From positions 1-62,374 of the IMG/VR virus record IMGVR_UViG_3300007351_000005: a DNA stretch of 62,374 nucleotides; one strand, given 5' to 3'. The first letter of the stretch is position 1, and each line of letters begins with the position of its first letter. The translations under genes and the position numbers were made by a program. Source of the stretch: a virus. The notes beneath the pieces were generated by a model. That model saw nothing but the letters and a program-made list of their open reading frames with translations. It did not search any database and was not told the DNA's origin. Positions 1,113 to 2,521 of the stretch are shown here, piece after piece.

Positions 1113-2521
1113 TCGCTCTCGATCAACTCCGCAGCGACGCGGTCACCGACGAGCAGGCGCGCCTGGTGCTTGCCGATCTCGAGGAGCAGCGCGCCGAGTC
1201 CGTCGGGGTGACCTTTGTCGAGATTCAGGGCGCCGAATACAAGACGCAGAAGGCGTCGGAGGTCTCCTTCAATACTGCCGACTTGCTTCGCGGGCCGTTC
1301 GCCCGTTCGTACGCGGCCAGCTTCTCGCGACCAGACGTCGCACGGCTGTGGCGCGACGAGACGCCGGCGCGCTCCGTGCCGCTGCGTGATCGCGTCGAGA
1401 AGATGACGCGCAAGGAACGCGATCAGATTCCGCCATGGGCCGAGAAATGGATCGCGATCGGCCTGTCTACCGAGCGTGCCGATCGGCCGCTCGCCGAGGC
1501 AGCGATCCATGCGTGCTACCGGCTCAGCGGGCACGCGCCGCCTAAGGCTGTGGTGTGGGCGCCGTGCCCGATCGTGGTCGCGTATGCCGGGCCGATCGCG
1601 CTGCACTGGTCGCGCAAACTCGGCAACGCCTCAGTCGACGCCTCAGTCGACGCCTCGGTCCGCGCCTCAGTCGACGCCTCGGTCCGCGCCTCAGTCGACG
1701 CCTCGGTCCGCGCCTCAGTCGGCGCCTCAGTCGGCGCCTCAGTCGGCGACTCGGTCCGCGCCTCGGTCAACGCCTCGGTCGGCGCCTCAGTCGACGCCTC
1801 GGTCCGCGCCTCAGTCGGCGCCTCAGTCGACGCCTCGGTCCGCGACTCGGTCCGCGACTCGGTCAACGCCTCGGTCGGCGCCTCAGTCGACGCCTCGGTC
1901 CGCGCCTCAGTCGGCGCCTCAGTCGACGCCTCGGTCGACGACTCGGTCGGCGCCTCGGTCCGCGACTCGGTCGACGCCTCGGTCCGCGACTCGGTCAACG
2001 ACTCGGTCGACGACTCGGTCCGCGACTCGGTCCGCGACTCGGTCAACGACTCGGTCGGCGCCTCAGTCGGCGCCTCGGTCCGCGCCTCAGTCGACGCCTC
2101 GGTCCGCGACTCGGTCAACGACTCGGTCGACGACTCGGTCGGCGCCTCGGTCCGCGACTCGGTCGACGCCTCGGTCCGCGACTCGGTATCAACAAGAGGC
2201 GAACGCGTCGACTGCACTGAGTACTGGCGTCATTATCTCGGCGGTCAATTCTGGGTCGGTGGTTGGGGGTGGGGTAGCGCATATCCGACGTTCATGCTCG
2301 ACGTGCTCGGCCTCGACATCGGACGCGTCCAAGAACTGAAGTGCCGCGCGTATGCGGCGCTCAACTCGTCAGCGTGCTGGTCGTTCTGGACGCGAGACTT
2401 CGTGATCGTCAGCGAGCGTCCGACGCTGATCGAGAAGCACAGCGACGGGTCACTGAAGGTCGCGCGCTGGGAGTGGGTCGGCGAGCGCGGCGAGCACTGC
2501 GAGTGGAGTGTGACGCCGTGA
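1109..2521 (+). CDS. DUF6745-like protein with 47 tetrapeptide repeats
   Basis: A 470-residue protein starting at GTG 1109, coupled to the previous stop. The first ~170 residues contain a segment of the type PPWAEKWIAIGLST, followed by a region ending GPIALHWSRKL. Residues ~174-361 are 47 units of the form (A/D)-S-V-(D/R/G/N), encoded by a 12-bp DNA repeat. The last ~110 residues are Trp-rich and contain YPTFMLDVLGLD and FWTRDFVIVSERPTLI. The flanks resemble the DUF6745 family as I remember it, some members of which carry DSVRDSV-type repeats. Function unknown. Tract length is likely to vary by slippage or recombination. Confidence in the reading frame is high, in the family assignment moderate. 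Confidence 0.75.
   Translation: MIALDQLRSDAVTDEQARLVLADLEEQRAESVGVTFVEIQGAEYKTQKASEVSFNTADLLRGPFARSYAASFSRPDVARLWRDETPARSVPLRDRVEKMTRKERDQIPPWAEKWIAIGLSTERADRPLAEAAIHACYRLSGHAPPKAVVWAPCPIVVAYAGPIALHWSRKLGNASVDASVDASVRASVDASVRASVDASVRASVGASVGASVGDSVRASVNASVGASVDASVRASVGASVDASVRDSVRDSVNASVGASVDASVRASVGASVDASVDDSVGASVRDSVDASVRDSVNDSVDDSVRDSVRDSVNDSVGASVGASVRASVDASVRDSVNDSVDDSVGASVRDSVDASVRDSVSTRGERVDCTEYWRHYLGGQFWVGGWGWGSAYPTFMLDVLGLDIGRVQELKCRAYAALNSSACWSFWTRDFVIVSERPTLIEKHSDGSLKVARWEWVGERGEHCEWSVTP
1628..2191 (+). repeat. 12-bp tandem repeat array (47 units)
   Basis: In-frame units of type GCCTCAGTCGAC or GACTCGGTCCGC. Codon 1 is GCC or GAC, codon 2 TCA or TCG, codon 3 always GTC (the last unit has GTA), and codon 4 GAC, CGC, GGC or AAC. 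TCA appears only after GCC. The array contains no stop in other frames, which creates long false open frames on both strands. Confidence 0.95.

Follow-up and report, generated by a model that had tools for sequence, protein, structure and literature searches.

The number and order of the units in a tetrapeptide array found in phage proteins of the DUF6745 type turn over faster than the flanking DNA, through gain and loss of whole blocks, and the variation from unit to unit concentrates at amino-acid-changing sites, the synonymous sites being nearly frozen. The change is fast and focused on one residue of each unit, and it would serve binding or evasion. The explanation that we prefer, and to which we give about even weight, is that the tract is an arm, modular and diversifying, of a phage protein that acts inside the cell, and that this arm serves binding or evasion. 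The array from which the analysis started lies in a stretch of 62,374 nucleotides (IMG/VR record IMGVR_UViG_3300007351_000005, positions 1 to 62,374), called the window here, but the trait is much more general than this one gene.

The array and the protein that carries it

The array occupies positions 1628 to 2191 on the forward strand, 564 nt that form 47 in-frame units of 12 nt within a 470-aa gene, and its TRF score of 625, against 64 for the next best array of the window, places it far beyond chance, confirming the 47-unit tetrapeptide repeat proposed by the sequence-only reading. The form (A/D)SV(D/R/G/N), which that reading had assigned to every unit, describes 46 of them (ASVR 12, ASVD 10, ASVG 8, DSVR 4, DSVN 4, DSVD 4, DSVG 3 and ASVN 1) and fails for the last, the boundary unit DSVS (GACTCGGTATCA). 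Across the 46 full units, eight of the 12 nucleotide positions are invariant and only positions 2, 6, 10 and 11 vary. The codon rule that TCA occurs only after GCC held in one direction, as all 15 TCA codons are in GCC units, although 16 further GCC units use TCG. The statement that the tract stays in frame in all readings proved wrong, since each frame of the forward strand is open, but on the reverse strand two of the three are interrupted by stops (16 and 5).

The gene extends from 1109 to 2521 on the forward strand, starting at a GTG codon with GGGGAAGG upstream, and this start overlaps the stop of the preceding gene as GTGA. It encodes, all on the same strand, an N-terminal extension of about 94 aa (1109 to 1390) with low AlphaFold2 (AF2) confidence, partly conserved in the related contig L159; the alpha/beta N-terminal domain of the family (1391 to 1627), with the motif T..E...W..KWI.IGLSTE.AD, assigned from its pLDDT and its identity to L004 and L159; the array; and the N-terminal part of DUF6745 (2189 to 2518), assigned from identity to L003 and L160 and from hhalign. 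Both flanks of the array are homologous to L159 and L160, two contigs from one metagenome that were reached through a DNA pattern scan, each of them cut off within an ASV[RDGLH] array. L159 is 46% identical to the N-terminal part over 167 aa, reaching into the extension, and L160, the nearest relative, is 57% identical to the C-terminal part over 109 aa.

Neither the whole protein nor either flank reached the cutoff of the Pfam HMM for DUF6745 (PF20530), for which the gathering score is 27 bits, and L160 falls just below it with 26.1 bits. The description of the protein as DUF6745-like, which direct search with whole protein and flanks did not support, is upheld by homology through relatives: the C-flank is 47% identical to L003, which scores 77.1 bits as a member, and matches a set of DUF6745 sequences (A3) in hhalign with a probability of 98.8%, the N-flank is 45% identical to the member L004 (42% for the N-terminal domain), and Foldseek pairs the protein with the DUF6745 member of Microcystis phage LMM01 at a probability of 0.89. 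Judged by these relatives, the array protein is to be placed with DUF6745. It ends before the C-terminal half of the domain, that with NxExRRxxxExxGW and related motifs, and so does L160 at the same place; the protein is therefore a conserved short form made of the N-terminal domain, the array and the first part of DUF6745 only; gene decay was rejected as the cause of the truncated C-terminus for this same reason. By eye, the small open frames 3' of the gene (2522 to 2843) hold no remnant of the other half.

Scans of the whole protein against Pfam, NCBIfam and PHROG gave low-complexity matches only, and tblastn of the whole protein against phages gave none, the relatives being obtained when the flanks were used alone. 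The exonuclease gene of the window, used as a query for close relatives, returned a single distant match. A weak match, Polaribacter Danklef, is not a member of the family, and in L156 the DNA pattern sits in an unrelated short CDSV run. PADLOC gave no specific match to a known anti-phage defence component: its one match in the protein covers 19 residues (231–249) of the low-complexity array, L004 gave one weak match, and both were judged spurious.

Unit turnover and a single variable residue across the family

Among the 98 viral contigs that have a DUF6745 gene, 68 carry arrays of period 4, with 7 to 81 units and in many of them at the same point of the protein. Another 26 viral contigs carry a full DUF6745 gene without an array, making the array dispensable, and four further genes, in which no array was detected, run off the contig end. 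The unit form of the family is [A/D/S/G]-[S/Q/A/T]-[V/L/T]-x, and the types found in different phages (DSL, SSL, GQL, AQV, SQV, GAV, AAT, NAV and others) follow one common pattern: a small or acidic residue, a polar or small one, V, L or T, and a variable one. From phage to phage the codons used for identical residues differ, so that conservation lies in the pattern of the protein and not in a DNA motif. In even samples of genomes, 12 of 148 from the class of L049 (Actinomadura) matched the DUF6745 domain, 11 of them above the Pfam cutoff, as did one of 190 from the class of L047 (Methylopila). Among the genomic copies that could be read, one (L150, reverse strand, from the Actinomadura class sample) has a long GAV[DRYNG] array that exceeds 50 units, and its C-flank, with FGGNLWVGGW, resembles that of the array protein.

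Two irregular loci were also observed. In L070 (positions 3–800) an AQV array passes through the three forward frames in turn, which may reflect two frameshifts or an assembly error, and in L017 (5200–5640) an xSL tetrapeptide array closes an upstream reading frame directly before an array-free DUF6745 gene.

The turnover of units is evident when close relatives are compared. L081 and L082 have an identical 5-kb flank and the last 29 units in common, followed by a difference of one 8-unit block, and they differ also by a few units close to the contig ends. In L016 and L018 the 3' flanking DNA is 98.6% identical, yet there are 20 units in one and 33 in the other, and L063 and L065, at 97.2% identity, have unit orders that are unrelated, although assemblies may collapse or mis-join arrays and could in this way inflate or hide such differences. 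The unit order common to the members of each of these last two pairs was no better than in shuffled arrays, and the same was true of the window array compared with L159 and L160. Thus, an identical number and order in all relatives, named beforehand as the outcome against a variable tract, was not seen, and the expectation that a DUF6745-type protein contains a combinatorial tract that varies in frame was borne out. Contigs stop inside the array in 31 of the 68 cases, against about 1.3 expected; short-read assemblies often break in the arrays, so that the trait is under-recorded.

The distribution of variation within the unit was analysed in 69 arrays. Mean nucleotide diversity at the variable codon was 0.61, 0.39 and 0.17 for its first, second and third positions. 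In codon 1 the second position, which decides between A and D, had a value of 0.35, whereas at the other nine positions, including all four third positions, it was 0.11–0.17 and mostly 0.11–0.14. Nei-Gojobori counts, which presume comparable mutation rates at all sites and treat units that are not independent lineages, put pN above pS in 64 of 67 arrays for the variable codon (p = 1.8e-12) and in 61 of 67 for the unit as a whole. In the window array, with a single variable synonymous site (TCA/TCG), pS was 0.149 and pN 0.221; in L159 (27 units) and L160 (25 units) nine of 12 positions are invariant and only nucleotides 2, 10 and 11 vary. At the protein level, positions 2 and 3 of the unit are near constant and position 1 switches between two small or acidic residues, and position 4 draws on a small set of diverse chemistry: R, G, W or Y, D or E, and sometimes N, S, H or L. 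Residues above a frequency of 8% at this position were R in 61, G in 45, W in 32, D in 25 and Y in 21 of 67 arrays. Two codon dialects encode them, NGG/GAG (W, R, G, E) and NRC (D, Y, R, N, H, S, G).

These data bear on a rival reading, that of a flexible or repetitive spacer in which length matters and the variable residues do not, their variation being slippage noise at an exposed site. The absence of the array from many members, the low AF2 confidence within it and the range of 7 to 81 units would suit such a linker. Nevertheless, third positions, which would be equally free, are nearly frozen while position 4 varies, the diverse residue set recurs in both codon dialects in unrelated phages, and the strict four-residue phase, needless in a spacer, is kept even in degenerate arrays, so that we regard a mere spacer as unlikely.

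Predicted structure of the array

AF2 models of the array protein, built with 58 sequences, gave pLDDT values of 81–97 for the N-flank (residues 90–165) and 83–94 for the C-flank, and presented the array as two long helices with a confidence of 45–76. For L128, which has a degenerate array, a helical hairpin on a confident core was predicted, with values of 47–92 along the array, strong at the base and weak (47) at the tip. A helical hairpin on a confident core is consequently the form suggested, at low confidence, by the models. The helix is not settled by them, as the spacing of V or L follows period 4 exactly, with no drift even in degenerate arrays, and ordinary coiled coils have no strict period 4.

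This exact period is what could be expected from a beta-solenoid similar to pentapeptide-repeat proteins, with four residues per face, in which the residues that point outward would provide a surface for mimicry or binding. The beta-branched V or T at position 3, the frequent Gly, Ser and Asn, and Pro in place of the aliphatic residue in some units of L102 would also agree with it. Against it, AF2 gave helices for both the array protein and L128, array-free bacterial members look helical at the same place by inspection, and Asp, about one-third of the residues at position 1, would be buried. A beta-solenoid appears rather improbable, and the repetitive solenoid that the sequence-only reading had suggested may or may not be ordered: structure prediction returned helices of low to middling confidence, and their period fits a normal coiled coil poorly. 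Pentapeptide-repeat proteins share with the array a short unit of small, polar, aliphatic and variable residues, but their period is five and not 4, and the array has no Pfam match and a helical AF2 model.

With Foldseek and VIA-align the DUF6745 core matched no known fold convincingly and no PDB fold clearly, and no relative with a solved structure was found. Matches of the array to long helices of ABC exporters were set aside as unconvincing, such an arrangement being common.

Genome context and possible function of the arm

The window belongs to a tailed phage with an integrase. The array gene is near exonuclease and methyltransferase genes, the tail genes being 22–32 kb away on the other strand, and in the Mycobacterium prophage GD102-1 the family gene adjoins a RepA-like replication initiator. 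A variable virion surface or receptor-binding tract, proposed earlier and suggested by analogy with the hypervariable tail fibres of phages, would be very unlikely in this setting, in which the neighbours are not tail genes and the family partner is a small unannotated protein; the same neighbours speak for an intracellular protein. That the DNA repeat itself is functional, as a recombination hotspot, an origin or a binding array with an incidental open frame, is hardly credible despite the near-frozen direct 12-nt repeats, since the unit DNA for the same residues differs between phages, the frame links two conserved protein domains and the variation falls on nonsynonymous sites.

In the arm that we favour, tandem tetrapeptides follow the N-terminal domain and precede the DUF6745 core. 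Slippage or recombination would duplicate and delete blocks, which keeps the frame because the units are 12 nt long; units would be homogenised, and selection would keep the exposed residue diversifying. The arm, perhaps a helical hairpin, could present a surface for recognition or evasion to a partner that itself changes fast, for instance a defence protein of the host. A diversity-generating retroelement was rejected as the mechanism, as no reverse transcriptase (RVT_1) was found in the window record, which may be incomplete.

The closest parallel from general knowledge is that of TALE arrays, in which near-identical DNA repeats also confine variation to a small codon set, one varying residue pair per repeat, and vary in number and order, although their units have 33–35 residues and not 4; neither homology nor DNA binding is implied. 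Intragenic tandem repeats are reportedly variable in number, in frame, between strains in TolA, as in the arrays described here, but we know of no repeats of that type in which one residue is hypervariable while the synonymous sites are frozen. In hypervariable phage proteins the usual sources of variation are retroelements, inversion systems and the exchange of tail fibres; here, in many unrelated phages, a non-tail gene seems to use tandem modules to diversify one residue in four. The literature searched contained nothing on DUF6745 or on such tetrapeptide arrays. More tentatively, phages might carry combinatorial recognition arrays as a general class, with one presented residue per module, reshuffled by recombination of unit blocks under diversifying selection, which bind or evade rapidly evolving proteins of hosts or rival phages. 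If this possibility holds, basic, acidic, aromatic and small residues might, just as tentatively, make up the module alphabet of a previously undescribed class. The target of the arm, once known, would expose the conflict that drives such turnover, and the arrays could be used as strain-level phage markers.

The DUF6745 proteins of phages and bacteria share homology with both flanks of the window protein, and many have the array at the same point; the window subfamily is unlike them in lacking the C-terminal half, in scoring below the Pfam cutoff and in lacking an adjacent partner gene. A partner protein of about 117 aa is encoded next to the family gene at 94 of 104 loci, with no Pfam family and a sole match to phrog_27831, a PHROG of unknown function, and no such gene was found in the DNA of the window, L159 or L160. 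Its invariant HSETGHxH and DTH(E) motifs (e.g. L055, 846–1205), mostly accompanied by QRE and RQREYTPEG, are a possible metal site. The joint loss of the partner and of the C-terminal half of DUF6745 suggests that the two act together, and the arm would work in the window subfamily without both of them.
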